From: Kalmusia sp. IMI 367209
Taxonomy: Eukaryota; Ascomycota; Dothideomycetes; Pleosporales; Didymosphaeriaceae
DNA length: 64,000 nt
Reading direction: 5' to 3'
NCBI GenBank assembly: GCA_027946365.1
Contig: JAPEUQ010000002.1
Location: forward strand, 930,001-994,000
The notes beneath the pieces are model-generated. The model was not told the DNA's origin. It did not search any database and was given only the letters and a program-made list of their open reading frames with translations. Positions 43,981 through 63,998 of the stretch are shown here, in pieces (within the stretch, counting starts at the first letter, position 1; each line of letters opens with the position of its first letter). The position numbers were made by a program, and so were the translations under genes.

Positions 43981-45862
43981 TTACTCTTGCTGCGACATAT
44001 GCGTCGGCAGATTGTATCCCGTGTAATCAATATGAACAAAGGCACGGTCGACATAAGGAACGCTCTCTGTGTCTCATTAGCAGATATTCTAACTTCGTCT
44101 GTTGAGTACCGGACGACTCGCCTAAAACATATTGCAGCGACTCTCCGAGATCATGACTATCCCTCAAACTAAGATTCTCATCGACCACGATATCAACTTC
44201 CACATTGAGCTTGTCACCTGCATGATACGCTTCCAGCCCCTGAATCTGCTTGATGGTCTTTGCAAACCGCATCGTTAGATATAGTAAGATGTTGCGCTCG
44301 TCGGCTGTCGCGGCAGCACCTGTCAGATTGCGGATGTGAGTCGCAGAGGTGCGCGACCAGTTGATGATAACGAATAGGGACAGAAGGAGGCCACCGAGAG
44401 CGTCGAGCCACCAGATATTAGCATAGAAACCAATCAATGGGAACAGGATGCTGAAGATGTTGAAAACGACGTCAGTTTCGGCGTCTTGAGCCAGCGCCTG
44501 AACGCTAGAGTTGCGGATCAGACGGCACCAGAGCCAGCAGCCTCCCTTGACCAAGACGGTGGAGGACATGATGGCAATGGCAGGGATAGTGAGCTCTACG
44601 ACGGTGTGATCATCGCCAGTCAGCCGGGAGAAAGCTTCAATGGCAACCTGGAAGAAGGAGGTGATCATGATAACGCTGAAGACCAGGACCCCGATGGGTT
44701 CGAGACGACGCCTTCCAACGGGATATGCGTATTTATCTTGTGGTCGAGCAATGATCCACGATGTGATCCACACAATAGCTGTACTGAGAAAGTCAAGTGC
44801 CGCATCAACAAGCGAAGCAACCACAGAGAGGGAAGACGTAAGGATAGTAACGACGATCTTCAGAATCAGCAGGACTGTGTTGGCGACGAGATTGACGTAG
44901 AGCGCAAGCTTGACAATGGGACTCTCGGTGTCTTCGTCTTCCTCCGGAACCCAATCTGGCATCTTTGCCAGGGTTTCTATCTCTTCCTCCTCGTCGTAGG
45001 TATCCGCGCTCATTAACGGTGTGTTTTCATCCACGGCTGGAACTTTGTACAGGTTCTTTGGCGTCCGCTTTAATTTTACTTGTGAGCCATTGCTAACTAA
45101 GGTAGTAGCACTTTGTGAATTGGTGTTCATGTCGCTGAAACTGTCGCCGGGTGTATGCGTGGCGGGCGTGGACGAGATAGACGGTGATTCTTCGGTGATG
45201 GTGGTTGGGATATTGACATTGCCAGATTCGTGGTTGCTGTACTCTTGTATGAGATGGTGCGGAAGCGATGAATCGAGAAGTCGGTCTATGTAGTCGTAAT
45301 GTTGTATCAGGTCGTTATTGCGCTCGTAGTATTTTCGCAGAGGCTTCTTGTATTGCTTGAGGTCTTCCTCCGTCTTAAAATATCTCTCCCATTTGTACCT
45401 CGGATTCGAATTGCCGATGAGTCGCTGGCTTCTCATCTGTGGTGTGTTCAACGCATGCGCGCCGATGCTCATCCTCCGCTCTGACGCGCTGTCGTACGCC
45501 GCCATGAGCCCGTTCCGAAAATAATCGATGTCATCGTCGCTGGAGACGCTTCCGCGGCGTTCGGACCGGGAGCTGCGCAATGTAGAGGGTCGCCTTGAGA
45601 TCAAACTCTGTAGCTGTCCACTACGCGTAGACAGCGCGTTCGATTCGCTGGCTAGAGGAAGGAAGCCTTTGAGGCCTGCAAGGCGAGACAAGCTCGTCGA
45701 CCGTGGGAGGCCGGGGGATCTCGAAGGGGAGCTTCCGGGGGTCATGGTAGGGCGACTCGGTGGTATGGCAGCGGCGGAGGAGGAAAGAGGGAGAAAGGAG
45801 GAACGGTCCGAAGCAGAGTGGGTTCTCACATTGTGACCTGCGGGAATTGGCATTTTCATCAC
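43981..45862 (-). CDS. Cation diffusion facilitator (CDF) metal transporter, copy 2
   Basis: Paralogue of the copy at 40284-41718, with a much longer disordered Ser-rich N-terminus (about 330 residues), 612 aa. Exons 45862-44110 and 44066-43981; the second exon restores the family C-terminus (VPYVDRAFVHIDYTGYN), separated by a short 43-nt intron. Two DxxxD metal sites (SLVDAALDFL; LAQDAETDVVFN), the RRRLEPIGVLVFSVIMI loop and the cytoplasmic YHAGDKLNVEVDIVVDE domain are all present. Probably a Mn/Fe-type CDF of an internal membrane. Adjacent Met codons (45862, 45859) make the exact start ambiguous. Confidence 0.92.
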
Positions 45863-46398: not shown

Positions 46399-48178
46399 CT
46401 ATTGGTTGCTAGGGTACAAGAACTCAGACTGCGGGAAGAACTCTTCCTTGATAAGGCGGGGAGTGGTGAAGCGCAGGAGCGTGTTAGGGCTTCCGGCCTT
46501 GTCGTTGGTGCCGCTCGCTCTGCTGCCACCGAAGCTTTGCTGTCCAATGAGGGCTGCCGTGGTCTTGCAGTCTGTTCAATGTTAGAAAGAGTTACTGTAC
46601 GTATTTCCATAAAGACTTACTGATGTAGAAGTTTCCTGCTGAGTAGCGAAGCGCATCTTCTGCCTCACGGATCGCGGCTCGTGAATTGGCGAATACCGCA
46701 CCTGTGAGCGCAAAGCCACCTCCAGCCTGATCTACCTTCTCCAAGATGGAAGGCCACTCAGCATCGGGATAGACATGAATAGCGAGAACGGGACCGAAGA
46801 TCTCGTAGTTGAAGAGCTTGTGATCTGGAGAATCGGCGAGATAGACAGTGGGCTTGACATAAAAGCCTTCCGAATCATCATAGGTACCACCAGCAACTAG
46901 CTTAAGCGAAGAGTCGTTGTTACTCTCATCGATGATGGCCTTGACCTTGTCGAAGGAGCGGCGGTGGATCACAGGACCCATGAAAGCGGCAAGGTCCTTG
47001 TGCGGGTTGCCCTGGGTAATGCTCTTTACGTCCTTGAGGAAAGCATCAAGGAATTCCTGAGACCGGGATTGAGGAAGGTACAAGCGGGAAGTAGCGGAGC
47101 ATTTCTGACCCTGATATTCGAAAGCGCCACGGACGGTGTGCTTGACCGCTGATGGAATATCGGCAGACGGGTGGATGAGGGTGAAGTTCTTTCCGCTGGT
47201 CTCGCCAACAAGACGCGGGAACTCGCGGTAAGTGTTCTTGCCGATACCCTCGCCAACACGTGCTTGGAGCTGGCGGAAGACATCTGAAGAGCCTACAAAT
47301 CCTAGGCCAGCAAAGTCGCGATGGTTGAGAATGACATCGTTGATCTCCTCGGGATCACCAGGAATGAACTGGATCACATCCGGGGGGAGACCGGCCTCGA
47401 GGAGGATGTCATAGACAATACTGCTGGCGTACACATTGGCTGGGGATGGCTTCCAGAGGACAACGTTGCCCATGATAGCAGGCCCAGAGATGAGATTGCC
47501 ACCGATAGCGGTGAAGTTGAAGGGTGACACGGCGTAGACAAAACCTTCGAGCGGGCGGTAGTCCAAGCGAGACCACATACCATCACTTCCACGGTAAGGC
47601 TGTCGTCCTAGGAGCTCGGCGGCGTAGTTGGTGTTCAGGCGGAAGAAATCAGCGAGCTCGGCGGCGGCATCGACCTCGCCTTGCCAGATGTTCTTGCCCT
47701 GGCCAAGCATAGTTGCGGCGATGAGCTTGTAGCGGTACTTCCTCGATACGAGTTCTGCGGCCTTGATGAAGATAGCCGCACGGTCTACAAAGGGTGTGTC
47801 TTGCCATGACTTCTTTGCCTTGAGAGCCGCATCGATGGCAGCATTCACTTGCTCCTTGGAAGTAAGAGGGTTGTTGGTGAAGGTGGTCTTGTGCTCTGCA
47901 GGCAGGACTTGATCCCATGACTTGCTCGCGGGCTGTGCTGTGCCATTGAAGATGATGTTGCTTTGGACAGGGATCTGAGATTGGAGCTCTTTCAAGGCCT
48001 TCTCTATCTCAGCCCGCTCGGGCGAGCCCCTCTCATAGGTAGGGTTGGGCTCATTCCGCTCCGGTGGGAGCTGAAACGGTAGTGTGGCCGATGCGGTAGT
48101 CTTGTTTCGGAACTGAGGTCGAAGACGCAGAGCCGAGTTGCGGGCTGCAAGGGGGCGTAATCGCAGAAGAGTAGACAT
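46399..48178 (-). CDS. PUT2: Delta-1-pyrroline-5-carboxylate dehydrogenase (ALDH4 family)
   Basis: Mitochondrial NAD-dependent enzyme oxidising glutamate semialdehyde (from P5C) to glutamate; the animal orthologue ALDH4A1 also turns 3-hydroxy-P5C into 4-hydroxyglutamate. Exons 48178-46621 and 46571-46399, 576 aa. An Arg-rich N-terminus (MSTLLRLRPLAARNSALRLR) is a good matrix presequence. ALDH signatures: FNFTAIGGN, VLWKPSP, GFVGSS, catalytic Glu in LVGETSGKN, catalytic Cys in YQGQKCSATSR, EIFGPVLAIHVY, and the C-terminal QQSFGGSRASGTNDKAG. Divergent from the aldolase, with 471 bp between starts. It may serve both general proline use and the neighbouring pathway. Confidence 0.97.
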
Positions 48179-48649
48179 GTTGTGCAGCGGTGGGTGATTT
48201 GAGACGGTGTGGGCTGCGCAGAGCCGTTCAAGTATTCATTGCTGGCTTGCTGCTCCATGGCGAGCCGAAGTCGCAGCGCGCTGCCGTTGGAAAGCGAGGC
48301 GGGTCAGAAGCCGGGAGGTGGGTAACGTTCGTCACACGATGCGCCAAGCAGAGGTGCAGCGGAGACGCGGTGCAGCAACGGATGCAGGCCCGGCAGCAAA
48401 GCCGTAGCGCGGCATGTGGAGTTACTCCAGGATTCCTAATCGGGTAGCTCCATCGGGCACGCAGCCGAGCAACTTCACGCATGGATCCAGGATGGCAACG
48501 GAACTCGGACACGACGTGCGAATGTAAATAGTTTTCTCTTGTCTCTTGTACTGCTCGGCATCTACGCAAAAGTCCTTTCCTACTTTTTCCCTCTCTCCTT
48601 GTTGATTGATAACTATCATAATCAGCGCCATCGCCTCTCGACTGGAACC
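48179..48649. promoter_or_regulatory. Divergent promoter of P5C dehydrogenase and aldolase
   Basis: A GC-rich 471-bp region with many CGG/CCG triplets, as expected for a Zn2Cys6 target. It contains a 13-mer at 48503-48515 shared exactly with the aminotransferase promoter. Confidence 0.6.
48503..48515 (+). promoter_or_regulatory. Shared 13-mer, candidate regulator site 1
   Basis: ACTCGGACACGAC, 135 bp upstream of the aldolase start. The same 13 bases occur at 52476-52488. They include a CGG triplet, the usual Zn2Cys6 half-site. Confidence 0.45.
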
Positions 48650-49648
48650 ATGCCGAGTCACGTGCCGCCGAGCGGAGTCTGGTGCCCTGCAGTCACCTTC
48701 TTCGACCCGGACACGGACGAGCTTGCGTTGGATGCGCAGGCGCGCTACTTCCACTACCTCTCCACGACTGGGCTCGCTGGGCTCGTGGTACTCGGCACAA
48801 ATGCTGAGACATTCCTCTTGACGCGCGAGGAGCGCAAGGAGCTCGTTGCGACTTGCAGACGGGCAGTCGGGGCGAGTTTTCCCATCATGGCAGGTGTAGG
48901 CGGTCATTCGACGCGTCAAGTACTGCAGCACATCGCAGACGCAGCCGACGCGGGTGCCAACTCTGTTCTCCTGCTGCCGCCCGCCTACTTTGGGCCTGCG
49001 ACCACTCCGCAGGTTCTCGAAGCCTTCTACGACGATGTCGCCAAACAGAGCCAGCTGCCAATCGTCATCTACAACTTCCCCGGTGTCTGCAATGGCGTCG
49101 ATCTGGACTCCGCCTTCATCACCACCATGGCCCAGCGCCATTCCAACATCGTCGGCGTAAAGCTCACGTGCGGCTCCGTGGCGAAAATCACGCGCCTGGC
49201 TGCTGTGCTTCCCAAGGAGCGGTTCGCTGTATTCGGCGGCCAATCCGACTTCATCCTAGGCGGCCTGGCATCCGGGTCCGCAGGCTGCATCGCGGCGTTC
49301 GCCAACGTGTTCCCTAGGACCATTTCGCACATCTACTCCCTGTATCAACAGGGTAAGGTCGATGAGGCTCTGGCCTTGCATCAGAAGGCTGCATTAGCGG
49401 AGCAGCCCATCAAAGCTGGAATTGCCGCAACGAAATATGCTGCAGCGATTCATAGCGCTGCCTATGCGGGAATTGATAACGCTGTCGCGCTGCTGAGGCC
49501 GCGCAGACCTTATCTCGAGCCCGCAGGCCCTATCAAGGACCGGGTCAAGTCTACCATGGCTGAGGTGGCCAAGATAGAGCAGAGTTTGGCTTCTTCTCCG
49601 AGGGCAGCTAAGCCTTCTTCACGAATTCAGATAGCCGCGCGACTTTGA
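48650..49648 (+). CDS. DHDPS-family aldolase, probable 4-hydroxy-2-oxoglutarate aldolase
   Basis: TIM-barrel class I aldolase/lyase, intronless, about 332 aa, start MPSHVPPSGVWCPAVTFFD. Family residues: GTNAETFLLTREER (phosphate/carboxylate loop), the Tyr in IVIYNFPGV, and the Schiff-base Lys in IVGVKLTCGS. The family also contains dihydrodipicolinate synthase (absent in fungi), sugar-acid aldolases and HOGA1. The position between P5C dehydrogenase, permease, aminotransferase and a proline-dehydrogenase homologue favours HOGA1 activity: 4-hydroxy-2-oxoglutarate to glyoxylate + pyruvate. No clear presequence is seen, so it may be cytosolic, unlike the mitochondrial animal enzyme. Fold is confident; substrate is inferred from context. 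Confidence 0.88.
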   Translation: MPSHVPPSGVWCPAVTFFDPDTDELALDAQARYFHYLSTTGLAGLVVLGTNAETFLLTREERKELVATCRRAVGASFPIMAGVGGHSTRQVLQHIADAADAGANSVLLLPPAYFGPATTPQVLEAFYDDVAKQSQLPIVIYNFPGVCNGVDLDSAFITTMAQRHSNIVGVKLTCGSVAKITRLAAVLPKERFAVFGGQSDFILGGLASGSAGCIAAFANVFPRTISHIYSLYQQGKVDEALALHQKAALAEQPIKAGIAATKYAAAIHSAAYAGIDNAVALLRPRRPYLEPAGPIKDRVKSTMAEVAKIEQSLASSPRAAKPSSRIQIAARL

Positions 49649-50157
49649 TCATTTTAAAGGTCATGGATATGGAGATATAACAGGCGTTCGATTCTTTTCT
49701 TCTTCTTGGGCTGTCCGCGGTCTAGACCGAGACTTAGATAATGCAACTACGTATCTATTAAACTCTTTTGTACGAATCTCGACCAATCTCGATCAAGACC
49801 CTGTACGTCAGTGGCTGACGGATCTCGCAGTATATCAATTAATCGATGCGGGTTGGTTCCCGTCCCCAGATACCCATTTGCCGGCTCCGTCGCCGGCCCC
49901 CGCACACGATATCCAGCGCCCAGCGACTGGGATGGTGGTCCCGGATGGCTTCCACCCCACAGACATCCCTGCCCCGTAGCCGCTACCAAGTCAGCCAGAC
50001 CAGACTGGGCAAAGATGCCATGTGCTTGGGCTGACCACCACAGGGGAGGTGAAGGCTATGTATACAGGGCCTTCGTCCGCCATCTCCACAACTCATCTCC
50101 ACTCTCTCCTCTCCTCTCCCATCATTCATCCCATCACTCTCCTTGAGTCCTCTCGCA
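49649..50157. other. Aldolase 3' region and permease promoter
   Basis: No gene. Pyrimidine-rich close to the permease start. The 13-mer of the neighbouring promoters is not found here. Confidence 0.45.
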
Positions 50158-52184
50158 ATGGTGGGCAACAAAGACTTCTCGTCCTCTGGCGAGAAGGTCG
50201 TCGATGTGACGACGGACAAGGACCTCTATCCGGTTGAGACCAGCGCCAATCAGAGTATCCATCAAGGAGTCGTCGGCAATGCCGACGAGCTTCAGCGACA
50301 TCTTGGAAACCGTCAATTGCAGTTGATTGCCATCGGTAAGTGCTCTTTGGGAATGAGATGGATCACCTCCTTTTGCCAAACATATCTAGATGCCTTCGTT
50401 GCATCACAGCCAGGGTGCTCACCACCCATGAGAAACACGCTGACGATGTCCCTTTACTCCAGGCGGTTCTATCGGCACAGCGACTTTCGTCTCCATCTCC
50501 AGTGGACTCATCAAAGGCGGCCCTGGAAGTCTGTTCCTCGCCTACACCATCTACACATGCATGCTTGGTCTTGTCAACAACTGCCAAGCCGAGATGAGCT
50601 CCTATATGCCCGTCACCGGAGGGTTCATCCGCATGTCCGGCAAATGGGTCGACGAAGCTTTGGGCTTCATGATCGGGTGGAACTTCTTCATCTACGAAGC
50701 TATCTTGGTGCCTTTCGAAATCACTGCGCTCAATCTCGTCTTATCTTACTGGCGCGATGATATTCCGGTCGAAGCCGTCGTTGCAGCTTGCATCGTGCTC
50801 TACTTGTAAGTTGTCACAAATTCTTGTTTCCGGATCAATTGCCGTCTCGCAGCGAATTGGGGCGATGCACGTGTGATTGATAACTACTCGTGGGACTAAA
50901 GCTGATAATACTGGCAGTTGCATCAATGCTTTCGTCGTGAAATGGTACGGCGAATGCGAATTCTGGCTCGCTCTCGGAAAAGTATTCCTCCTCCTGATGC
51001 TCTTCTCCTTCACCTTCATCACCATGGTCGGCGGCAATCCCAAACACGATGCCTACGGATTCCGCTACTGGAACAACCCAGGCTCCTTCAACGAGTACAT
51101 CACCACGGGACCGCTTGGGCGATTTGAAGGTTTTCTCGGCGCCCTGTGGAGCGCGGCTTTCACCGTCGTCGGCCCAGAGTATGTGTCGATGGTCGCTGGT
51201 GAGGTCAAGAGTCCTAGGAAGTACCTCAAGCAGGCGTTCAAGGCGACTTATGCGCGCTTCGGTCTATTCTTCATCGGCAGTGCCTTGTGCGTGGGCATCG
51301 TTGTACCGTACAACAATCAGACCTTGGTCGACATCTTCAACGGCAAGAGCGATGGCGCCGGCACCGCGGCCGCATCGCCCTATGTCATCGCCATGAAAAG
51401 TAAGTAGCTCCTCATTGTATTCTAGCTATCAGGCCCAACTCCCTCCCGCGAACTCTTACTAACATGGTACCTAGATCTCGGCATCGAAGGTCTCCCTCAT
51501 CTCACCAACGCCCTCCTCGTAACATCCATCTTCTCCGCCGGCAACGCCTACACATACTACGGCACACGCTCGCTCTACGGCCTCGCCATCGAAGGCCAAG
51601 CGCCGCGCTTCCTGCGCAAATGCACAAAGGCCGGCGTCCCCATCTACTGCCTCTGCATCGTGATCCTTTTCCCCTTCCTCGCGTTCCTCAACGCGTCCTC
51701 GGGCTCCGCAAAGGTGCTCACCTGGCTGACCAACATCATCACGGGCGCCCAGATCATCGACTACATCGTCATCTGCATCAACTTTATCTTCTTCTACCGC
51801 GCGTGCAAGGCGCAGGGGCTCGACCGCAGGAGCCTTCCGTACTTTGGCAGGTTTCAGCCCTGGAGCGCGTATATTCCGCTTGCCTTCTTGACCTGCGTCG
51901 TTACGTGCTATGGGTATACGACGTTCTTGCCTGGCAACTTTACGGTTGATGCCTTCTTCACGTATTATATGATGTTGCTCGTTGATCCTGTGCTTTTCGT
52001 TGGGTGGAAGCTGTGGAAGAAGACCAAGTTCATCAAGGCGAGCGAGGCGGACTTGGTGTGGGATAAGCCCGTCATTGATGCGTATGAAGATGCGTTGGTA
52101 GAAGAGCATGTTGGCTTCTGGAGGGATGTGGGCAACATGTTTGGAAAGTGCTTTGTGAGAAGGAAGAATGAGTCGAAGGCGTGA
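50158..52184 (+). CDS. Amino-acid permease (AAP/YAT family)
   Basis: Plasma-membrane proton symporter for amino acids. Four exons: 50158-50335, 50463-50805, 50918-51399, 51475-52184 (570 aa). The cytosolic N-terminus leads into LQLIAIGGSIGTATFVSISS, the conserved helix-1 motif that binds the substrate backbone. About twelve membrane helices follow, including GWNFFIYEAILVPFEITALN, AFTVVGPEYVSMVAGEVKSP and NAYTYYGTRSLYGLAIEGQA. Cytosolic tail ends FVRRKNESKA. The family includes the proline permease of the Aspergillus prn cluster; uptake of proline or hydroxyproline fits the neighbours but specificity cannot be read from sequence. Confidence 0.93.
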
Positions 52185-52475
52185 GTTTTGGATTGCAGAT
52201 GAGCATGAGGGTAACCTTATGTGTGGGACAGTATACTCTAGGATTGGGAGAGATGTTTGTTTCCAGGGCGGTATTTTGCAATTGCCGAAGCGCAAGACAT
52301 AGATGTGGATCAATGAGAATACAACGCTTTTTCTCGCGTAGCACGTGTCGCCTCGTGGCCTACCCTGTGAACGATATGCGCAGCCAAACCAGGTCGGCGG
52401 TACTGTGGCTTTCGCCTCATGCGTGCGCAAGACCCCAGGTGGAAGACTAATGCAAGTAATGTGGCCAGAACGACG

Positions 52476-52488
52476 ACTCGGACACGAC
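52476..52488 (+). promoter_or_regulatory. Shared 13-mer, candidate regulator site 2
   Basis: ACTCGGACACGAC, identical to 48503-48515, about 240 bp upstream of the aminotransferase start. The core ACTCGGA recurs at 61282-61288, upstream of the proline-dehydrogenase homologue. Confidence 0.45.
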
Positions 52489-52525
52489 CAACGCTGTCCT
52501 TCCGGTCCCCAAAGATCCCTCAATA

Positions 52526-52590
52526 CCCGCTCGGAAGCGGGCAGTGCCCACACACCCCTCTGGGCACGTGAAGTGTCGGGACCTGTCCCG
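52526..52590. repeat. Three adjacent inverted repeats in the aminotransferase promoter
   Basis: CCCGCT/AGCGGG with a 4-nt loop (52526-52541), GTGCCC/GGGCAC (52544-52567) and CGGGAC-CT-GTCCCG (52577-52590). The last is a CGG-N8-CCG inverted pair, a geometry compatible with a dimeric Zn2Cys6 factor. Confidence 0.6.
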
Positions 52591-52729
52591 GCAGTACAGC
52601 TCTAGTCTATCTCCATATTACCGCGGGGCTAAAGCGAGCAAAACAAGACATACGGGTAGACGTATATGTAACGGGGATTTGGGAAAGCAACACAGACTAG
52701 GTTCTTCCTTCTCTTCATTGTGAGCAATC

Positions 52730-54148
52730 ATGTTCTACACCGTGCCTCCTAGCCCGGTCGACCCGGTCAATATCTTGAAACTGAGGGTAGACGCTGACAC
52801 GTCGCCCGAGAAAGTCGACCTTGGTGTTGGCGTGTACAGGAACGAGCAAGCACAGTATCATGAGTTGCGTGCGTTGAAACAAGTAGGTGCAATGGAATAG
52901 GCGTAAGTATATCGCATCTGACCAGAAGCAGGCAAAACAAAGACTTGCACAGCAACATCTTGGCCACGATGTACGTACACTACATATGCATGGATCGTAT
53001 TAGTTGGTTAATATGCCGCAGTACGAAGTAACAACCGGCAACGGAAAGTTCCTCGAGAACGCCGCACGCGTGCTCTTTGGCTCTAAAGCACCCATCCTCG
53101 AATCCAAGAGACTTACATCCGTACAAGCGATATCCGGCACGGGCGCCATACACCTCGCAGCGCTCTTCCTCGCCCGCACCTCTGCATTCGAAACTGCAAA
53201 AGTATACGTCGGTACCCCGGCATGGGGCAACTATGTGCCGCTCTTCAACCTCGTGGGGCTCGAAGTGGTGACCTACAAGCACTACGATGCGTCCTCTGGG
53301 ACCGTCGATTTCGCTTCGGTGCTTGAAGCGACGCGGAAAGCCCCAGAAGGCAGCATTTTCGTGCTGCAAGGGTGCTGTCACAATCCTTCGGGTGCCGATC
53401 TGTCCCCTTCACAATGGGATGAGCTTGCTGCTAGGATGAAAGAGAGGAAGCTGTTTCCGCTGTTTGATATGGCATATCAGGGACTTGGAGCTTCCTTAGA
53501 CGAAGACGCATACGGTCTGCGATTGTTCACAGAGAAAGGCTTCGAGCTTATTGCTTGCCAGTCCTTCTCGAAGAACTTTGGGCTATACGGCGAGAGAGTT
53601 GGGGTATTGCATGCGGTGAGCGACACAAAAGAGATTGCAGAGAAGGTGTATGATCGCTTGCGCTGCTTCATCCGGTGGGAATTTTCGTCGAGTCCGGCAT
53701 ATGGTGCGAGATTGGTCGACATTGTATTGGCGGATGATGGGCTGAGGGAAGACTGGGAGGCGGAGCTCGCGACAATTCAGAAGCGGCTTGCTGAGACTAG
53801 GAGAGCTTTGTATTCTGAGGTGGTTGACAAGCGAAAGGTAAGTGGTTCTGTCTTCACTGAAGAATACTGTTGATCCTCTCTCAAGGCACAAGGCAATTGG
53901 AGCACGATCCTTTCATCCAAAGGACTCTTCTGGTACGTATCTCTATAACATTGGATCGTAACATAACATTGACCTGGATTAGTTTCCTTCCGCTGAATCC
54001 ACAGCAGTGCGAGCGTCTCGCCAGCGAGTTCCACATCTACATGCTACAGAACGGGCGTATCAACATTGCAGGTTTGAATCGGTCAAATCTAGAGCGTGTA
54101 GCTTCAGCTCTGGTCGAAGTGGCAAGTACGCCGTCATCGCGCTTGTGA
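52730..54148 (+). CDS. Aspartate/aromatic-type aminotransferase (class I PLP enzyme)
   Basis: Transfers amino groups between dicarboxylic amino and keto acids. Five exons: 52730-52882, 52932-52970, 53022-53837, 53886-53932, 53983-54148 (406 aa, typical of AspATs). Class I features: KVDLGVGVYRNE, TTGNGKFLENAARVLFG, QGCCHNPSGADLS, FDMAYQGLGASLDEDAYGLR, the PLP lysine in SQSFSKNFGLYGERVG, and the C-terminal INIAGLN block. No presequence, so probably cytosolic or peroxisomal. In the animal hydroxyproline route an AspAT converts 4-hydroxyglutamate to 4-hydroxy-2-oxoglutarate, the step this gene would supply here. Probably a pathway paralogue rather than the housekeeping enzyme. Confidence 0.92.
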
Positions 54149-54606
54149 GCGAAGCAGGGGATCCACAGCGTTTGGCATCGGATAGGTGCCCGATCAGTGT
54201 TCTCGGTTGGCCCGGTGCGAGTGAGGATCCGCATCCGCACTAGGCCACATTAGGTATTTTCCAGGCTGGCGATGACACGGCTCCGCATTTCCAACAACAA
54301 GTCGGGGTAGTGCGGATACTACATGTGTAGTTGCACGTCTGAGAGAGGGAGAAGCAAAGAGGAAGACGGATATCGGGAGCTGTGGAGATAGTTGTAGGTA
54401 ATTGAGGAAAGGACGTCGTGTGCTCTTGCCCGATAAGGCGTTTGCTAGCGGCAGATTCCCCGCTCAATCTTCCACGCCTGCTCCGCCATGTCTATCAACT
54501 TCTGCACGCCGTTATCAGAGTGATCGTACTACCGTCGCCGCCTCTAGCCGCGCATACACACCGGATTGCATGCCGTTGCTGGGAATGGGCACTGACAATG
54601 CATACC
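54149..54606. other. Intergenic upstream of the regulator
   Basis: No gene; holds the aminotransferase 3' region and the regulator's promoter. CGG triplets are present but no copy of the 13-mer. Confidence 0.45.
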
Positions 54607-57548
54607 ATGGCGAATACCGGTGAACAACGACGTGCATCCAAGCGATCATCCAACGCGTATGGGCCCCTTCCGACTACTGGACTGGCTATCTTCAATGCTG
54701 ATGTTTGGATGAAGGTGCTCACGGTGCCGACGACAAAAAAATCAAGTGCTCAGGCCTGCAGCCCTGCGCCAATTGCACGAAGCGAAGCCTGAGCTGCGTT
54801 TTCGACGACCGGGACAACAAAGTACTAGTAACGCAAGGGTAAGCAACATGAACAGTGCTGTATCCAAAGTCCCCATGCAGTACGCTATACCAAGCGATAT
54901 CCTGCAAGCATACATTTTTCGAGGCTCTTGGCGGTGGTTTTCACTTTTTGTTATACACCAAGGCTTATCAACCCTAGCTATCTTTCCGACTTACAACAGA
55001 AAGTCGCAAGATTTGAAAGGAGCCAGAGCACTGCAGCGACCACTCCTGGACCGCAGCATGACTCTCGAGAACATGTCGATGCAGGACCTTCCCAAAGAAG
55101 CGGCGCATACCAGGAACAGCCACAAGAAGGCATTCGGCCCAATGCTGTTGATACCCAGGAGACCTCCCGATCGAGCCATGGAGAGACTAGAGAGAGTTCT
55201 CCAAGAAGAGATCAGGGACAAGCTGAAGGGCCTGAGTTGACCAATCCCCTGCTTGAGTCGCCTTCCAAATTCATGGCATCCTCTTCAGGAAGGACTTGTA
55301 AGTCACGTATTCCTGTGGATGAAGAACATCACTAATCCAAGTAGTCTACCTCGGCACTTCATCCAACTGGTCTTTCCATGGCCAGGTTCTGAATATCGTC
55401 CACCAGCATATCCGCAGTACACCTCTACCCGGTGCTGAATTACTCTTCGATGGATCAGCCTACAATCTTCCCTGGGTGCGTAGCCTCGGGGTTCACCTGC
55501 ACATCTCTATGCATTTGGAGGTGGCTTTTTGGATTGGACTTCGCTGACTTGCAACGCGATAATTTAGGACGGCTCTCGCAGTCTACCAGAAACGACCGCC
55601 CCTGTGATCCCCAGCATAGATTACGCCATCTTCCTCATCAACGCCGTTAAATTTCATTGTGGCCAACTAGTCCATTTATTCGACGAGGAAGAATTTATGG
55701 GCAAATTGCACGCCTTTTACTCAAATACAGACCAGAACAAACTGAATGACAGCTTATGGTACGTTCAATTCTTGCTGATCATTGCATTCGGAAGGACTCT
55801 CGTGCAGCGAAAACATCGAGAATCTAAGCCACCTGGTGCCGATTTCTTTGTACATGCGCTCCAATTGTTGCCAGACACCAATCGACTGTGTCGAGAACCT
55901 CTCGTTGCAACTGAAGTACTATGCGGCATAGCACTTTACTTGCAAGCTTTAGACTCTCGCAATGCAGCACACGTAACAGTAAGATAGTTCGTGTTGTTCT
56001 AGTACTTACCATTTCTAAACAGTACACAGATAGGCCAAGCGATGCGAATAGCACTAGCTGAGGGTATGCACACGGACATGCCTATCGCCGAGTTGGGAGA
56101 AGCATTCGTTCAGCGATGTCGTAGAATCTGGTGGTCTATCTATATCCTTGATCGGCAAATGAGTTCGCAAATGGGGATCCCTCAATCAATACGAGACGAT
56201 GATATTACCTGCCAGCTCACTCATTTTCCGGGTTCCAACCAACGAACTGCGGCGCTCAAGATGCAGATCAAACTCGCTCGAATATACGCAGACATATCCC
56301 GAAGTAAGTCAATCATATCATCTCACTAGATGAGACAAGGAGACTTCCGTTTTCTAGGCTTCAGGTGCACCCGAGGCCCTTAGGTTTGGTCTACGGTGAT
56401 GTGCTGACCTTAGCTTGCGCAAATGTTCACCCCGATTCGTTGCCTTCAAGCAACATTAGTTGACATTATGTAGGCGTGTATGGTTCAAAAGGGCGCCTTC
56501 GCAAGAAATTCGTCATCAGCATAAAATCGGTACTCGACGATATGGCAGTGATCGCAGAGGAACTACGAAATTCGTTTCCTCTACATGCGGATGAGCGCTT
56601 CGGTGGCATATCACGCATGCCTGCACATCTGCACCTCATGTATTATCAGGTAAGTCAACCCTACTACTCACGCTGTACGGCCAGAGAATATTTGCGCTTT
56701 TAGATGTTACGTCCCTTGGAAGTTTCTATCTCTACTACGTTTCACATTCTTACGTTATTATGGGTTGCTGATAGAAACGCACAGACAATCGTTGTGACCA
56801 CAAGGCCATTGCTCTTTTGTTGTCTGAAGAAGGCTTTCGAATCTCCAAGGGAGGTTGGGGCCTTGGTTTCATCGCGCAAAATAAGACCTCTATTGAGCAT
56901 GTCTCTAGATGCTTCACAGAAGATCTTGAATATTCTCGAGAGCTTACAAGACCAAGATCTACTAGGTATGGCAGACTCCCACCTTTCTTTCCTCATAGGC
57001 TTACACATACGTTAGAGTCCTTCCTTCCCTGGGATCTCGACTCTCTCTTCGTATCCACAATGGTGCTTGTTCTTATCCGATTCGTCGATGATACCTTGTC
57101 AGAAAATAGCTCCGTCTGGCTAAACAAGGCTTTCGGGTTTCTGGACATTATGGCAGCCAACGGCAACCGGATCGCCGAGTTTAGATGTGCCGAGCTACGC
57201 AAGGTCGAGGAGATGCTGTCAGAGTATTTGGCGAGCAGAACTCCGCAGCAGTTTGCGCCTCTCATAATTCAACAGGGTGCGCAACAACCACAGCCACCTC
57301 CACCACCAGCGGGGTTCTGCTTCCCACCTCCGCCAGATAACCAGTCTCCAAGGAACATAATGTCTTCTACAGATGCCATGGGTATGTATACAGCATTTAG
57401 CGATGAAAGTAGCGGGTTTGGTGACGACTTGACTGCCGAGCAGATTCTGGCTGTTGCTGAGTCGATGGATCTTGGTAGCACTGATTGGTTCTCCTCTTTT
57501 GCAACTATGGATACGTATCAGATGGTGGATCAACAACACCCAATATAA
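54607..57548 (+). CDS. Zn2Cys6 transcription factor of the catabolic cluster (apparent frame break)
   Basis: Probable pathway-specific regulator. Nine exons: 54607-54656, 54715-54838, 54978-55297, 55345-55475, 55568-55978, 56030-56303, 56474-56649, 56785-56965, 57016-57548; about 730 residues. The first junction joins N-A to CSRCRR, the first half of a Zn2Cys6 cluster. The second half, KIKCSGLQPCANCTKRSLSC, gives canonical CX2CX6CX5CX2CX6C spacing but lies one frame over; the break is at CGAC plus a run of seven A (54731-54741). A coiled-coil linker (YLSDLQQKVARFERS) follows, then the fungal-specific middle homology region (YLGTSSNWSFHGQVLNIVHQ; QRCRRIWWSIYILDRQMSSQ) and a Gln/Pro-rich, acidic C-terminal activation region. 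Exon total is one base over a multiple of three. Confidence 0.85.
54731..54741 (+). other. Apparent +1 frame break inside the zinc cluster
   Basis: CGAC followed by seven A. The frame coding the first two cysteines and the frame coding the last four differ by one base here. A homopolymer miscount is the simplest explanation; a real null allele is the alternative. Confidence 0.6.
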
Positions 57549-57794
57549 GCAGCTCCGAATTATACAAAAGAAACTTAGGAGATCAAAGCACGAACATAAG
57601 CCACAGACTAGGTTAGCTCTGCGGCAGCAATAGCAAGCGTCATGGGTGTTAATTTCGCTGAACTCCTCAGCACGTATAAAAACATGGTATCTGCCAAATT
57701 AAGTTCAAAGCAATGGATTGGTAAGTAATAATTTATAGTTTCAATATGCCAGGCGCTCATGAAATCGGAATACAGGACCATGGCCAGCAACACA

Positions 57795-59168
57795 TTACAG
57801 CTTCGCCTTCACCGGGCTCTCTTGTAGATCGCGAAGCTCCCTCACATCACCGACGCGCCAGCTCACATCGGCATCCTGACTTGTCTCACCATTGACGGGC
57901 TTCGGGTCTCTCCACCGCCATCGCGCAATCTGTTGCTGCCCACTCGATGTATTCAACAGGTCGCGTACCCATCGTCCAACGATGGGGAAAAGCTTAAAGC
58001 CATGGCCAGAGTCGCCTGTCATTATCATGACCGAGGAAGACGTCTTAGGAACGTAATCGATGATAAAGTCGGAGTCATCGGTGTCTGCGAACCAGCACAG
58101 CGACTTCTCTACTAGAGGTCGATCTGCAAGATATGGAAGCGTCTGGCGAAGTAACTCCTTCATCTTTAGCTCATCTTCGTACGGTACAAATCGAGTTACC
58201 GCTTCCGGCGCTGAAGATATCCCAGTCGAGGGATCAGTGTTGACGTAGCCGCCGCCCATGGGACATAGCTTAAGCAGATTCGTCTTGGGATCCGGCTCGA
58301 AGAAAAATCCGAGATCGCGGGCATACACGACAGGAATTCCGCGCAGCGCAGAAGTCTCGTCGTCTGTGAGGCGTACGTGAGCGACTGACCAAGACTTCGC
58401 TGACACGTTCGACCCAATCTCGGGCACGATCTTGTGGGCAGCCGCTCCCACAGCCACAATGACAAGAGACGCAGCGTGGACACGTCCATCTTGGGTTCGA
58501 ACACCAACACTCTTCCGGCCCCGACTCGAGTTCTCATATACGACCTCTTTGACGGCGCCAACCTTCTCCCCAAGGAAAAATCGCACTCCATTAGATCGCG
58601 CTGCACGGTAGACAGCCCGAAGCGCATTTGCGGAATGTACGTAGCCATCGTAAGTGTTGATGTAGCCTCTCCAGCCGGGTAGCTGGCCGGAGAACTGCCA
58701 GCACAACTGGCGAAGCTCTTCGCGCCCGGTTACATTAGAAACGAAGGGCTTCATGACGGAACTTCGCTCAGCGGCCGCCTGAAATCGCCTCATCGTATCA
58801 ACAGCTTTCTGGGGTGCGGCTTCGGAGACGCAATTCAGGAAGCCGACGCGGTGGAAGTGGGGTGCGTAGAAGGGTGTTTGCCATTCCTGCATCGCCTCCT
58901 GCGTGATTGGTTAGACCTTGTCTTTTCGTCGCACAGTACCTGGGACATTAAAACTTACGACTGCAAGATCGGTGTAGAAATCATCCTCGTACTCGGCTCT
59001 CGCGATCTTGTTGAGGTCATTCCCGGCGCACCAGCGGGAGGGTATCTCCTCGTCTTTCTCAAACACAGTAATGTTTGTGTAACCATTTCTGGAGAGCTCG
59101 AGAGCTGTTGAGAGACCAAACGCACCGCTGCCAACAATGGCGATAGGTTCGCTCTTGGGTAGTGTCAT
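57795..59168 (-). CDS. FAD-dependent amine oxidase, MSOX family (sarcosine/pipecolate/fructosyl-amino-acid oxidase type)
   Basis: Flavoenzyme oxidising secondary amines or N-substituted amino acids with O2. Exons 59168-58959 and 58898-57795, 437 aa. The dinucleotide-binding fold is IAIVGSGAFGLSTALELS at the N-terminus. FYTDLAVEAMQEW and the central VGVRTQDGRVHAASLVIVAV follow. The Cys in KSLCWFADTDDSDFIIDYVP corresponds to the covalent-FAD cysteine of the family; GDSGHGFKLFPIVG closes the FAD fold. No clear C-terminal SKL, though the final KL is weakly peroxisome-like. Lying inside the cluster, it might feed in an alternative substrate (a D-isomer, N-methylated proline or pipecolate). That is inference. 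Confidence 0.88.
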
Positions 59169-59686
59169 CTTGGAGGACGAAATAGATGCTGCAGAGAGTG
59201 GGCCAGAGAACGGATGTGAAAGCTATAGAAGAGAGAGTACTTGAAGGGCAGAAGATATTACAACAGTTCCAATGTCATCAGGCGATGCTGCTGCCACCGG
59301 CATCGGAATTATCGGAATCAAGTTCCTATGCACGTGCTAGGGTACCGATATGGGGATACGCTAGTGGTGGGGTAGCTGCTGCTCGGGGGCACACCCGATG
59401 CTTCTATCTATTGGTTATGCACCAACGGGACGCGTACCGTTGCTCTTCACTTCTCCGCACTACACAAACCCGAGAACGGAGCCAACAATGCGCGGCTCAG
59501 TTGAGGCAATAGGACCACGAAGCTACGCCTTGCCAATGATATGCGTTTGGGCAGGCAATCATCGGATGTCAGTTGGAAGTCGAGCTTTGTTTGCATTACG
59601 TACACCAAGTGGCCCAGTTCCTGCTTGAGCGTCAACACTGTCTTGGTAGATGGCCTTGTCACCCCTTCGCTTCAACTACGATTCCC
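59169..59686. promoter_or_regulatory. Divergent promoter of the FAD oxidase and carrier-like gene
   Basis: 518 bp between two start codons facing apart. No coding sequence supported; the 13-mer found in two other promoters of the cluster is absent. Confidence 0.5.
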
Positions 59687-60646
59687 ATGACTCAACTGGT
59701 TGAATCCCAAAAGTTCAATCGAGGTTGGAAAGGCAAAACTCTACCGGGTTATCTTGCAGGAGATGTCTCTGCGGCTTTCTTATCTGCAACACTCATATCT
59801 CCAGTCCTCACGGCAATAGACAGGTTTGAACCCTTTCGCGAATGATTAAGTCTTATTCTAACATTATGTAGAGCCGTCGTCGAAAATGTTGCCTCAAGCA
59901 GTGGCTCCCTCTCAACCGCCCTGAAAACCAACCTGCTATGCACTTTCCGCTACCCACGGCGCTTCTTTGTCGCCAAACCGTTCTTCTACATGTGGACCTT
60001 ATATGCAGTCACCTATACGACCGCCAACAGTGTCGGGAGCCTCACTAAGACCTTCATGGACAACGGAAGCGACGTTCTAGCCAATTCAATCACGTTCCTA
60101 GCAACCTGTGTAGTCAATGTGCCGCTTGGAGTATGGAAAGACATCCGCTTTGTGCAAACCTTCGGTCGCAACACACCACCAAACAGTACGACAAACATAC
60201 CTAATTCCAAAGCGAAGACTTCTGTGAAACCGATACCCCAGGCTCCGCTCCAAGCCCCCAGGTTTCCACGCACTGTTGGCGCAACATTCCTCCTCCGCGA
60301 CGCCATCACCATCCTTGGCTCCTTCACACTTCCGCCCATGCTCTCCCACACTCTCCCGCTAGCCGATCCAGCTGCGCAGATGGCGGCCGCACAGCTCTTG
60401 GTTCCGGTGCTTTCGCAGGTCGTGGCTACGCCGGTGCATCTTTTGGGCCTGGACTTGTATTCGAATCCACAACGTTGGGAGAAAGGGGAACGAGCACGGA
60501 GAATCAAGAGGGGCCTTTTGGGTACGACGGCCGCACGGTGTGCGAGGATTATCCCGGCATTTGGAGTTGGTGGGATTGTCAATACGGGGTTGAGAAGCTG
60601 GTTTCATGGGAAGGTCGATGGTGGAAAGAGTAGGTTAGGGGCTTGA
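59687..60646 (+). CDS. Divergent mitochondrial-carrier-like membrane protein
   Basis: Exons 59687-59823 and 59872-60646, 303 aa, the size of SLC25 carriers. The sequence shows three repeats, each with a hydrophobic helix ending in a Pro-containing motif: ISPVLTAIDRAV, NVPLGVWKDIRFVQ and ATPVHLLGLDLYS. These resemble degenerate PX[DE]XX[KR] carrier signatures. A Pro/Lys-rich linker separates repeats two and three. I infer a degenerate carrier; it could also be an unrelated membrane family. A mitochondrial transporter would suit a pathway whose first two enzymes are mitochondrial. Divergent from the FAD oxidase. Confidence 0.65.
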
Positions 60647-60863
60647 GCGTAAGGCTAGCAATTTGGATTTGGATCCTTGTGATGATGATTTCTTCATTAT
60701 GCTTTGCAGCGGTATGATTGCTGGAGCATTAGATTTTATAAGTTTGGGTCATTGGTCTTCTGATCCATTGTGGAATTCAACTACTTGTGAGAGTATATCC
60801 TCATTCTGTAGACCTGCAGACTTTGTCTACTAGTCGTGAGCTCCTGATAGATCTTGACTATAT

Positions 60864-60898
60864 TAAAATCACATATATAGAAATCTATATATGATTTT
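60864..60898. repeat. AT-rich inverted repeat (hairpin)
   Basis: Arms aaaatcacatatatag and ctatatatgatttt, with two unpaired bases and a 4-nt loop, about 220 bp downstream of the carrier-like gene's stop. It could be a 3'-end structure or a trace of a small element. Confidence 0.65.
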
Positions 60899-61554
60899 GT
60901 CCTCAACCGCTTCCATCTCAACCTCAGAAAACAGCTGGGATTCGACAAGCTAAGAAAAGTAGCGCAACCAGCGACGTTTCTAGAATGCTACGGACTATAG
61001 ACACGGATGTGTTGATGCTCGCTTTGGGAAATAGTGCTCGTATAAACTTTCCTAATTTAGATGGCAGCCAATCGCATGCGTTGCGTACTACAAGCGTCAC
61101 CACCACGCCTCCTCACACAATCAAAATTACAACATTGTGAATCAGGAATCGATCGAATCATGACACTCTGTTCGAGGCCCTATCTCGAAATATTGCACTA
61201 ATAAGGTATGCCGATATCGAAGCGTCTACAGTGTTCGCTGCATGCGCATTGCCCCGCCCTGATCCCGGCCGTCGATAGTGAACTCGGAAGGCTACCATCG
61301 GCTCCTTCACAGCCCAACCAGGGCCCAGATTAGTCTTCCCCGGATCATTATTCCATTATCGACCATGACACAACACGTGTCAGGCCCATGGTGAACGGCG
61401 GGCAAGCTACCATGCACCAGTGCGTGCGAATCGGCTGGCTGGCCGCTGTAGGACGGGTTATCGGGAGGCTCATGCGAGGGTCACGGGGTGGGCTGCGGTC
61501 GCCTACGGCAGCACCGAGATCGCTGGAGCTCATGTGCGGGGTCATCGATAGACG

Positions 61555-61582
61555 GTGGGTTGGTGGGTGGTGGTGGTGGTGT
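61555..61582. repeat. GGT-rich microsatellite
   Basis: Runs of ggt and gggt, roughly nine units, 130 bp upstream of the proline-dehydrogenase homologue. Confidence 0.7.
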
Positions 61583-61708
61583 ATATCAAACAGTGAAAGA
61601 GGGTACATGAGGCTACGCCTGTATTCATATCTTACTGAAACGCTGCTTGCTGCCACTGCTCACTGATCAACTCTGTTTTCCTCAATTTGGGATATAGGGA
61701 GTTGGATC

Positions 61709-63255
61709 ATGTCTCGTTCAGCGACCTTGCTGCCATATCGAATCGGCAACTCGACTTCGAGAAGCTTACGGAAAGATGGGCTCGCCGGCATATCATATCT
61801 GCAGATCCGGTGGCACTCAGGTGTCATTCCGCCGACAAGAAGTGCTGGAGCAAACGTAAACGCAGATGCAGCAGCGCCGACAAGAACCACAAATGTACTG
61901 CCTCCAAAGGCCGCACAATCACAGTCACCACTGTATGTAAATCCTGACTGCAAACCCTCACATACACTGCGTGTCCTGAGGCAACTCACTGAATTCTACT
62001 GACTTGCATTTTGTGTAGTTCGGCGATGCCGTTGAACATGCTACTGCGATCATTCTTAATTGCCACAATATCTTCAAAGAAGTACCTTCTGATACCGTCA
62101 CTCAAACTGCTGGCATTCTTCGCACAACCAGACCGGAATTTTCTCTTCAACGTGGACCGAAACCCCGTTCTGCACGCTCTTCTTAAAAAGACGATTTACA
62201 ACCAATTTTGCGCCGGCGAGTCAGCAGTAGAAACGAGGAGTTGTGTCCAACAATTGAAAGACCTCGGCTTCAGGGGCGTCATTCTTACGTACGCAAAGGA
62301 GGTCGTTTTTGACCACAAGTCTCAAGCATCACACGTACCCGGAGCAAGCAACACCACAGAGTCCTCAACAGGACACGACTCCGTCATCGAGGAATGGCGT
62401 GTGGGTACGCTCGCCACAGTCGACCTCATCGGCAAAGGCGACATCTTAGCCATCAAAACCACCGGCGGCGGGCCCGCCGTAGCAAATGCCTTCAATAAAG
62501 GCGAGCTCCCTCCACCACAGATGCTGGCAGCACTCGACGAGGTGGCGACCAAGTGCAAGGAGCGAGGCATCAAGATCATCGTGGACGCCGAGTCCCAGCA
62601 CTTCCAGAAGGGCATTGCGCGGACGACGCTGGAGCTCATGCGCAAATTCAACCGCGAGCCCGAAGTCGTCATCTACAACACGTATCAAGCATATCTTAAG
62701 CGGACGCCCGAGTTCCTCGAGAAGCATCTCGCCGAGGCTGCTAAGGACGGGTTCACGCTGGGGCTGAAGCTCGTCAGGGGCGCGTACATACTCTCTGACG
62801 ACCGCTCCTTGATCCACGATACTAAAGAGGACACCGACCGTGCATACAACAGCATTGCTGAAGGAGCTCTCCACCAGAAACTCTTCAGCTTTGGCACGGC
62901 TTCCCGGCCATTCCCGGCTACCAACCTCCTTTTGGCCAGCCACAATAAGGCGAGCGTCATTTCGGCGCAGAGACTGCACGCGCAACGAGAGAAGGACGGC
63001 CTGCCGACTGTTCCTGTTTGCTTCGCGCAATTGCACGGTATGTCTGACGAAGTTGGGTTCACGCTATTGAAGGAGAGGGATGCGGAGGGCCGGGCGCCGG
63101 ACGTGTTCAAGTGCTCGACCTGGGGGAGCATGGGCGAGTGTGTAGGGTATCTTTTGAGGAGGGCAGTGGAGAACAGGGATGCGGTTTTAAGGACGAAGGA
63201 TGAGTTTAATGCGTTGAAGAAGGAGGTTTGGAGGAGGGCTGGCTTCGGTGCGTAG
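61709..63255 (+). CDS. Proline dehydrogenase family enzyme, candidate hydroxyproline dehydrogenase
   Basis: Mitochondrial inner-membrane flavoenzyme oxidising proline or hydroxyproline and passing electrons to the quinone pool. Exons 61709-61932 and 62019-63255, 486 aa. The first exon encodes a clear presequence (Arg/Ser-rich, ending near RWHSG). The (beta/alpha)8 barrel has LGFRGVILTYAKE, IIVDAESQHFQKGI, the FAD-binding GLKLVRGAYI, ASHNKAS, and the substrate-carboxylate arginines in YLLRRAVENRD. Residue 440 (codon 63112-63114, in VFKCSTWG) is Cys. Aligned by eye it matches Tyr540 of E. coli PutA, which contacts proline's ring and is Ser in human hydroxyproline dehydrogenase. The substitution plus the neighbouring genes favour a hydroxyproline substrate. 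Confidence 0.95.
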
Positions 63256-63713
63256 GGGGCTGGGCTTTGGCTTATGATACGAATGAATGAAGATCATGAA
63301 TGTGTAGCAGGATATGGTGATATTATGCTACCTCTAGAAGAAGGCAGCTCTTTTCACAATAATTCAGAAATATTGAATTGGTACGATAATGTCTGCTCAC
63401 AGTTGATTTGTGATTTTTCTGCCGCTATCTGTGACTTCATCTCCGCAGCCGTCATCCATCTAAAGACAGTCTTAGAAGTGGACTATGATATAGGATCAGC
63501 GGACACCTTATGTAAACTTAATACTGAAACCTAAGCCGTCCATTCATAGTGAGGGTAAAACGAGGAGAGCGTTATGGTAGTGACGTAGCGCGTAAAGTGG
63601 GGAAGGACCCAATCGGCCAGGGAGCCGAGCCGACTTCGGCATAAGGGCAGCTTCGGCTCACAAACAATGATAACAGCATCAGCATTCAGTAATTCGAATT
63701 TGAACACAAACAA

Positions 63714-63998
63714 CTACATTAATTCGAAGAAAAGTTTGGTGATCACAGAGTAAAAATGGGCAATCCCACTCTCTGTATCCTCGGCTGCGGCAAGTTGGTG
63801 AACACCCAAGAAACCTCTCTTTGAATTAACACCATGATCAGGAAATCTAGGCACGCCCATTTTGAGAAGCTTGATCGAAGCACCTGAGGATTCAACAGCC
63901 AGATTCAGCCGCTTCATAGCCTGCGTGCACAGCGCCGCGTCAGAAGACAGACTAGCAAAGACCTTCTCCACGCAGAAAGAGTCCGGAAAACTTGTCAT
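63714..63998 (-). CDS. Hypothetical ORF at the right edge, possibly partial
   Basis: A 94-codon frame (MTSFPDSFCVEKVFASLSSD...) ending in KLFFELM, with no recognised domain. The Met sits 2 bp from the window edge, so this may be the last exon of a gene entering from the right. The remainder of 63256-63713 contains nothing I can support. Confidence 0.35.
   Translation of the reverse strand: MTSFPDSFCVEKVFASLSSDAALCTQAMKRLNLAVESSGASIKLLKMGVPRFPDHGVNSKRGFLGVHQLAAAEDTESGIAHFYSVITKLFFELM

Follow-up and report, generated by a model that had tools for sequence, protein, structure and literature searches.

A nine-gene cluster in Kalmusia sp. IMI 367209 with a probable role in hydroxyproline breakdown

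Gene content of the block

The window analyzed here is a 64,000-nucleotide stretch of DNA from the fungus Kalmusia sp. IMI 367209, positions 930001-994000 of contig C12 in an assembly of 30 contigs and 42.78 Mb (C1, C8, and so on are contig numbers). The sections of PMC10027605 used here list 367209 as cf. Kalmusia sp. among 15 endophytes, give the same 30 contigs and 42.78 Mbp, and describe a hybrid assembly of Illumina and Nanopore data. Near the right end of the window is a block of nine genes, a putative catabolic regulon for trans-4-hydroxy-L-proline. Among them are genes for a proline dehydrogenase (PRODH) homologue, a pyrroline-5-carboxylate (P5C) dehydrogenase (P5CDH), a P5C reductase (P5CR), and an aldolase of the dihydrodipicolinate synthase (DHDPS) family. 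From left to right, the genes are:

46399..48178, minus strand: P5C (glutamate semialdehyde) dehydrogenase, ALDH4 type; exons 46621-48178 and 46399-46571; PF00171, TIGR01236
48650..49648, plus strand: DHDPS-family class I aldolase; single exon, 332 aa; PF00701; C-terminus -ARL
50158..52184, plus strand: amino-acid permease, AA_permease family; PF00324, 366.9 bits; exon joins by eye
52730..54148, plus strand: aspartate-type aminotransferase; 5 exons, 406 aa; PF00155; C-terminus -SRL
54608..57548, plus strand: Zn2Cys6-type regulator; several exons; class from a motif read by eye
57795..59168, minus strand: FAD oxidase, fructosyl-amine-oxidase/sarcosine-oxidase family; exons 58959-59168 and 57795-58898; PF01266; C-terminus -AKL
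59687..60646, plus strand: 303-aa protein with no family match; exons 59687-59823 and 59872-60646
61709..63255, plus strand: PRODH homologue, candidate hydroxyproline dehydrogenase; exons 61709-61932 and 62019-63255; PF01619
63756..64000, plus strand: P5C reductase, 5' part only in the window, running on to about C12:994719; PF14748, 100 bits

Seven spliced proteins were scanned, and six of them exceed the curated Pfam cut-offs (Aldedh, DHDPS, AA_permease, Aminotran_1_2, DAO, and Pro_dh). An earlier sequence-only reading of the window had placed eight adjacent genes at 46399-63255, and spliced models were obtained for all of them. It had also named the four enzyme classes of the animal hydroxyproline route, and all four (PRODH, ALDH4, an aspartate-type aminotransferase, and a DHDPS-family pyruvate aldolase) were found in the block by Pfam and NCBIfam. 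Its permease and its FAD amine oxidase are likewise supported, by the AA_permease match and by the DAO match together with a solved relative, 3djd. The ninth gene, for P5CR, starts at 63756, leaves the window, and had been overlooked. The label of "carrier-like" for the 303-aa protein is not supported, as neither Pfam nor NCBIfam gave a match. This protein has one paralogue on C3 (40% over its longer piece), and a model of its second exon alone reached a predicted local distance difference test score of 39.5 and is unusable.

Common promoter motif and linkage in other fungi

The seven intergenic regions of the block (4,073 bp) were screened for all Zn2Cys6-type half-site pairs in three arrangements with spacings of 0-15. 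The inverted pair CGG-N8-CCG was found 14 times and in all seven regions, and 200 shuffles gave a mean of 1.2. The sites are:

48300, 48379, 48391, and 48454 (48300..48467): four sites in the divergent P5CDH/aldolase promoter
49849 and 49882 (49849..49895): two sites upstream of the permease
52577..52590: one site upstream of the aminotransferase
54179, 54449, and 54562 (54179..54575): three sites upstream of the regulator
59384 and 59426 (59384..59439): two sites in the promoter between the divergent FAD oxidase and 303-aa protein genes
61432..61445: one site upstream of PRODH
63614..63627: one site upstream of P5C reductase

The intervals varied slightly between runs, at the ends of the regulator and PRODH regions, and always held 14 sites in 7/7 regions. 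Genome-wide, 8,907 sites in 42.78 Mb give an expectation of 0.85 in 4,073 bp (Poisson tail 5e-13). Seven intervals placed at random in window 1-46000 contained at most 5 sites in 20,000 trials, and first-order Markov copies of the regions had a mean of 0.9 and a maximum of 6 in 3,000 runs. Other inverted CGG/CCG spacings, from 0 to 20, occur 0-3 times each in the same regions, and no other promoter word of 7-9 bases is common to more than 4/7 regions. Within the genes of the block, counting introns, there are 9 sites in 13.0 kb. The 10 kb that follow the window on its right contain 2, both more than 6 kb past the end of the P5CR gene, and the paralogue loci have 0-3 per 10 kb. Thus, a common promoter motif is concentrated in the block, as in a coordinately regulated fungal catabolic cluster, and because of this distribution the genes from P5CDH through P5CR can be taken as one set.

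Linkage in other fungi was explored with the best 120 rows from each of three protein searches, in which 1,051, 2,012, and 5,666 proteins passed the E-value. Contigs were considered the same across lists when their sizes, typed from the listings, were exactly equal. By this measure all three genes have 8 contigs in common; for the pairs the counts are 12 (PRODH and aldolase), 11 (PRODH and aminotransferase), and 15 (aldolase and aminotransferase). Each count includes the contig of Kalmusia. Near misses in size were few for the three pairs (0 within 5 bases; 1, 1, and 2 within 20; 9, 8, and 10 within 100). All three genes are on one contig in Karstenula, Cucurbitaria, Ophiobolus, Plenodomus tracheiphilus, Aaosphaeria, Byssothecium, and Zopfia. 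Pairs share a contig in Paraconiothyrium, Paraphoma, Paraphaeosphaeria, Phaeosphaeria, Pyrenochaeta, and Corynespora, and also, in what we take to be fungi outside Pleosporales, in Paramyrothecium, Camillea, Diaporthe australafricana, and D. amygdali. The placement of all genera inside or outside the order is presumed.

Most species occur in only one of the best-120 lists and are uninformative on linkage either way. By hand count, all 13 of the Pleosporales organisms named in two or more lists share contigs. With the own species excluded, 10 of the 11 organisms in both the PRODH and aldolase lists share one, the exception being Diaporthe amygdali with different assemblies, as do 11/12 for aldolase and aminotransferase. 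For PRODH and aminotransferase, 10/17 share, 4 do not, and 3 (Truncatella angustata, Paecilomyces variotii, and D. amygdali) seemingly come from different assemblies or strains. Locus tags, if consecutive, agree with the gene order of Kalmusia: three genes lie between PMIN06_002787 (aminotransferase) and PMIN06_002791 (PRODH) in Paraphaeosphaeria minitans, and five between SLS60_003064 (aldolase) and SLS60_003070 (PRODH) in Paraconiothyrium brasiliense. The layout in Diaporthe differs, since the aldolase and aminotransferase are six tags apart in both Diaporthe species. The sequence-only reading had suggested a look at synteny of the aldolase, aminotransferase, and PRODH genes; judged by contig sharing, linkage recurs and is firm in Pleosporales and is mixed outside the order. 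With a common motif in seven intergenic regions and linkage recurring in other genera, the arrangement of the cluster is more than chance.

Enzymes and predicted compartments

In PutA of Escherichia coli, Tyr540 enforces the use of proline over hydroxyproline. A phmmer search of the cluster PRODH against the PDB gave no match; a profile of 22 PRODH relatives did align to the PutA structures and places Cys440 at PutA residue 540. The cluster enzyme thus has no Tyr at this position, as would be expected of an enzyme like HYPDH, the human form of which is presumed to carry Ser485 there. The alignment shows that the cluster enzyme retains the RR motif as well as the Lys and Asp that belong to the pocket. 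Among the best 120 PRODH rows, query included, 119 have Cys at the 540 position and one has Ser.

Near a contig end, at C25:3858191-3879339, lies another locus of proline/hydroxyproline-like content, in part decayed. It contains a Zn2Cys6 gene and a fragment each of an aminotransferase and a PRODH (the latter with Ser at the 540 position), as well as another PRODH, two P5CRs, a decayed and an open P5CDH, what looks by eye like a permease gene, and the remains of an aldolase of the HpcH/HpaI type. A protein of Fusarium oxysporum fuses the same aminotransferase and HpaI domains, suggesting a version that uses a different aldolase class. Repeat-induced point mutation was rejected as the cause of the decay of the C25 copies, as over most stretches its indices are close to the background of the window.

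P5CDH passes the NCBIfam equivalog TIGR01236 (690.4 bits, cut-off 613.6). P5CR scores slightly below the proC cut-off (189.9 bits against 196.75). There is a second P5CDH on C23, with 57% identity, and no PRODH, aldolase, aminotransferase, or P5CR was found in the 20 kb around it. An additional P5CR is on C29, away from the cluster. Because of these separate genes, the cluster P5CDH and P5CR are extra copies. P5CR domains are also carried by the listed protein in 20 of the best 120 PRODH rows, the row of this fungus included, so PRODH and P5CR are adjacent or fused in those species as well. The merged protein listed for this fungus is a prediction and the genes here are separate. A fusion is ruled out by the PRODH stop at 63253-63255, beyond which come 500 bp with a motif site.

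The aminotransferase aligns with aspartate aminotransferases (best solved one, 295.7 bits). Both substrate arginines and the pyridoxal phosphate lysine are conserved. The retained arginines fit a dicarboxylate such as 4-hydroxyglutamate as a possible substrate. The motif IRWEFS occurs in 86/120 rows, and two aligned solved enzymes differ after the Arg, which suggests that the aminotransferase forms its own subfamily.

The nearest solved relative of the aldolase is 3qfe (67% identity over 312 aligned residues, 466.1 bits). In the alignment, the aldolase retains what are presumably the Schiff-base Lys and the catalytic Tyr of HOGA1-type chemistry and lacks the residue we take to be Arg138 of DHDPS. 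The K motif is present in 113/120 rows. The role of the aldolase rests on gene context. Two other assignments were rejected. As a DHDPS, the protein reaches 126.8 bits with the dapA model, below the cut-off of 206.15, and for the galacturonate-pathway enzyme LGA1/GaaC, there is a better candidate outside the cluster at C12:2.72 Mb (by motif). An intact paralogue with 61% identity to the aldolase is located at C30:1464647-1465588, outside any recognized cluster, with one CGG-N8-CCG about 200 bp upstream.

A solved match of the FAD oxidase, 3djd, scores 210.9 bits. At C8:933835-944957, a fructosyl-amine-oxidase-like gene with 35% identity to the cluster FAD oxidase adjoins an aspartate-type aminotransferase gene, and a distant DHDPS-family aldolase (29%) follows about 8 kb further with other genes between. 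This is a cluster-like trio without PRODH.

The C-termini of the aldolase (-ARL), the aminotransferase (-SRL), and the FAD oxidase (-AKL) resemble the type 1 peroxisomal targeting signal (PTS1); that of the FAD oxidase is a single observation. Strict PTS1 tails are present in 29/120 aldolases, 17/120 aminotransferases (many of the aminotransferase rows look truncated), and 0/120 PRODHs, with a background of 0.25% of tripeptides in the same proteins. They are most frequent close to the query, in 12 of the 18 best aminotransferases and in 17 of the 49 best aldolases, of which 37 have a strict or relaxed signal. PRODH and P5CDH have mitochondrial-looking N-termini (by eye). Fungal peroxisomal malate synthase can take up glyoxylate in the glyoxylate cycle. 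The PTS1-type tails suggest a pathway that may run from mitochondrion to peroxisome and deliver glyoxylate and pyruvate.

Elsewhere in the window, two similar minus-strand open reading frames at 40284-41507 and 44027-45862 appear cation-efflux-like (by eye), with one other long open reading frame between them. At the left end, reading frames at 637-5718 resemble parts of a polyketide synthase (by eye).

Substrate of the cluster and comparison with known systems

The nine genes are probably a catabolic regulon for trans-4-hydroxy-L-proline, which probably can also be used for proline. The permease would import the imino acid. In the mitochondria, the PRODH homologue, its pocket opened by the Tyr-to-Cys change, would oxidize hydroxyproline to 3-hydroxy-P5C, which P5CDH would convert to 4-hydroxyglutamate. 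This intermediate would exit the mitochondria, and the final steps would take place in peroxisomes. There, the aspartate-type aminotransferase would probably yield 4-hydroxy-2-oxoglutarate, and the DHDPS-family aldolase would probably cleave it into glyoxylate and pyruvate beside malate synthase. The FAD oxidase and P5C reductase could be accessory, for other stereoisomers, N-substituted forms, or imine recycling. The resident Zn2Cys6 regulator would bind CGG-N8-CCG and act through it in every promoter. Breakdown by the animal route, as the sequence-only reading had proposed, fits the enzyme classes, the clustering, the motif, the recurrence in Pleosporales, the Tyr-to-Cys change, and the aminotransferase arginines. 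The layout is not simply the animal one, however, because of the peroxisomal-type C-termini on the aminotransferase and aldolase and the presence of P5C reductase.

Several observations weigh against a role in hydroxyproline breakdown. A full-length PRODH at C25:3159819-3161114 (C25:3.16 Mb; 33-36% identity) also has Cys at the 540 position, so the Tyr-to-Cys change is not specific to the cluster enzyme among the PRODHs of the genome. In this protein Gly replaces the Asp that is conserved in the DAE motif, and the frame is otherwise complete. A third PRODH, at C25:3.87 Mb, likely has Tyr at the position since it reads KYLP ahead of a frame interruption, and its integrity is unsure; a fourth match, at C23:2.94 Mb, has stops in frame. 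A separate, intact PRODH of the proline type was not clearly found in the genome. The cluster PRODH may therefore serve both proline and hydroxyproline, and the cluster may have a mixed role. The aldolase can be called HOGA1-like at the family level; it is not a HOGA1 orthologue, having 28% identity to human HOGA1 compared with 32-33% for the paralogues on C1 and C9. The entry name of 3QFE, "putative dihydrodipicolinate synthase family protein", gives no function. Outside the 49 best aldolases, only 12 of the other 71 have a strict PTS1 and 17 a relaxed one. The regulator gene is present and a Zn2Cys6 motif can be read by eye, as had been claimed, but the two halves of the motif are in different reading frames beside a run of A, and no Pfam match was obtained with two exon pieces, the whole protein not being scanned. 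The frame break may be a broken gene or an assembly error. Direct repeats with spacing 3 (8 against 2.4) and 9 (9 against 2.6), each present in 5/7 regions, were also unreached in 200 shuffles. Finally, PRODH and aminotransferase are on different contigs in Aspergillus steynii, A. heterothallicus, Pestalotiopsis sp. 9143b, and Xylariales sp. PMI_506, as are aldolase and aminotransferase in Hypoxylon sp. CI-4A.

Some of these points would suit an enlarged proline cluster of the prn type, an unlikely alternative in which PRODH, P5CDH, the permease, and the regulator serve ordinary proline use, the aminotransferase and P5CR serve glutamate nitrogen and a proline cycle, and the aldolase acts on an unrelated 2-oxo acid. 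The prn cluster of Aspergillus nidulans has a regulator, a permease, PRODH, and P5CDH, as far as described in the sections of PMC5983819 used here. In Kalmusia, the only other full-length, stop-free PRODH match is the one at C25:3.16 Mb that lacks the substrate Asp, and Cys at 540 is general in the PRODH clade, including Aspergillus and Penicillium rows without aldolase linkage among the best-120 lists. Yet in several Pleosporales genera the PRODH clade is linked to the aldolase and aminotransferase, both of which have the promoter motif, and the second P5CDH (57%) on C23 stands apart from the other cluster families. A dedicated pyruvate aldolase would also be useless for proline, and proline breakdown is not known to include a pyruvate aldolase step.

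Another substituted imino or amino acid is an improbable substrate. Examples would be an N-methyl or Amadori form of hydroxyproline or proline, or else glutamate substituted at position 4; the FAD oxidase would then be the entry enzyme, and the aldolase would cleave the corresponding 4-substituted 2-oxoglutarate. The FAD oxidase belongs to a family that oxidizes secondary amines and Amadori amino acids, shares the motif, and has a PTS1-type end, and its C8 relative (35%) is next to an aminotransferase, with the distant aldolase about 8 kb away and other genes between. PRODH and P5CDH, however, are standard and need the proline ring, and neither a demethylase nor an N-specific partner was noticed. 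Biosynthesis in reverse, from pyruvate and glyoxylate through 4-hydroxyglutamate to hydroxyproline by P5C reductase for a natural product, is highly improbable: aldolases and aminotransferases are generally reversible and P5C reductase is in the cluster, but a TIGR01236-type P5CDH runs oxidatively, no P5C synthase or nonribosomal peptide synthetase was seen in the block, and the permease and mitochondrial-looking PRODH indicate uptake and oxidation.

Hydroxyproline breakdown is retained as the probable function. More tentatively, the system could possibly be a two-organelle pathway, with a mitochondrial PRODH convergent with HYPDH and a peroxisomal finish in which glyoxylate goes to malate synthase. 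It would be joined to a side module of peroxisomal FAD oxidase and P5CR that turns other stereoisomers or N-substituted hydroxyprolines into the L form and to Zn2Cys6/CGG-N8-CCG control, and would serve plant-associated Pleosporales and some other fungi in the use of hydroxyproline-rich wall proteins. Both collagen and the glycoproteins of plant walls are rich in hydroxyproline. The cluster, if the proposed function is true, would explain the use of extensins and arabinogalactan proteins by plant-dwelling fungi. It would also be an independent case of a proline enzyme turning to hydroxyproline, and a natural pathway that makes glyoxylate, harmful in human hyperoxaluria, beside an enzyme able to consume it. 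The nine genes, the candidate regulatory site, and the pocket residue are each testable. The fungal catabolic cluster is a known kind. Among the papers listed by searches of the open-licence literature, no fungal gene set for hydroxyproline breakdown was found described, and two papers on fungal clusters mention proline in their reference lists only. Within this scope, the version seen here appears undescribed.

The prn cluster of A. nidulans comprises five genes (prnA, prnX, prnD, prnB, and prnC) in the sections of PMC5983819 used here. Like the Kalmusia cluster, it unites a Zn2Cys6 regulator, PRODH, P5CDH, and an amino-acid permease in one block. By the description in those sections, it is without the aldolase, aminotransferase, P5C reductase, and FAD oxidase that are all present in Kalmusia (PMC5983819), which agrees with the statement in the sequence-only reading that prn lacks the first two. 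The gene order also differs, and PrnA sites are CCGG-based compared with CGG-N8-CCG here. No ornithine-cyclodeaminase-type Pfam match, the type we take prnX to be, was found among the seven proteins scanned.

Bacterial hydroxyproline clusters contain an epimerase, a D-hydroxyproline oxidase, a dehydratase/deaminase, and a 2-oxoglutarate semialdehyde dehydrogenase. The Kalmusia cluster resembles them as a substrate-specific catabolic set with transporter and regulator, and its chemistry differs. A bacterial-type epimerase or dehydratase was not noticed in the block, no search having been aimed at either family.

The animal pathway (HYPDH/PRODH2, ALDH4A1, GOT2, and HOGA1) has the same four enzyme classes and the same predicted intermediates as Kalmusia. 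HYPDH, with Ser485, and the Kalmusia PRODH are both without Tyr at the PutA 540 position. Unlike in the animal pathway, the Kalmusia genes are clustered, the aldolase is of another family clade, the aminotransferase and aldolase look peroxisomal, and P5C reductase and an FAD oxidase are present.

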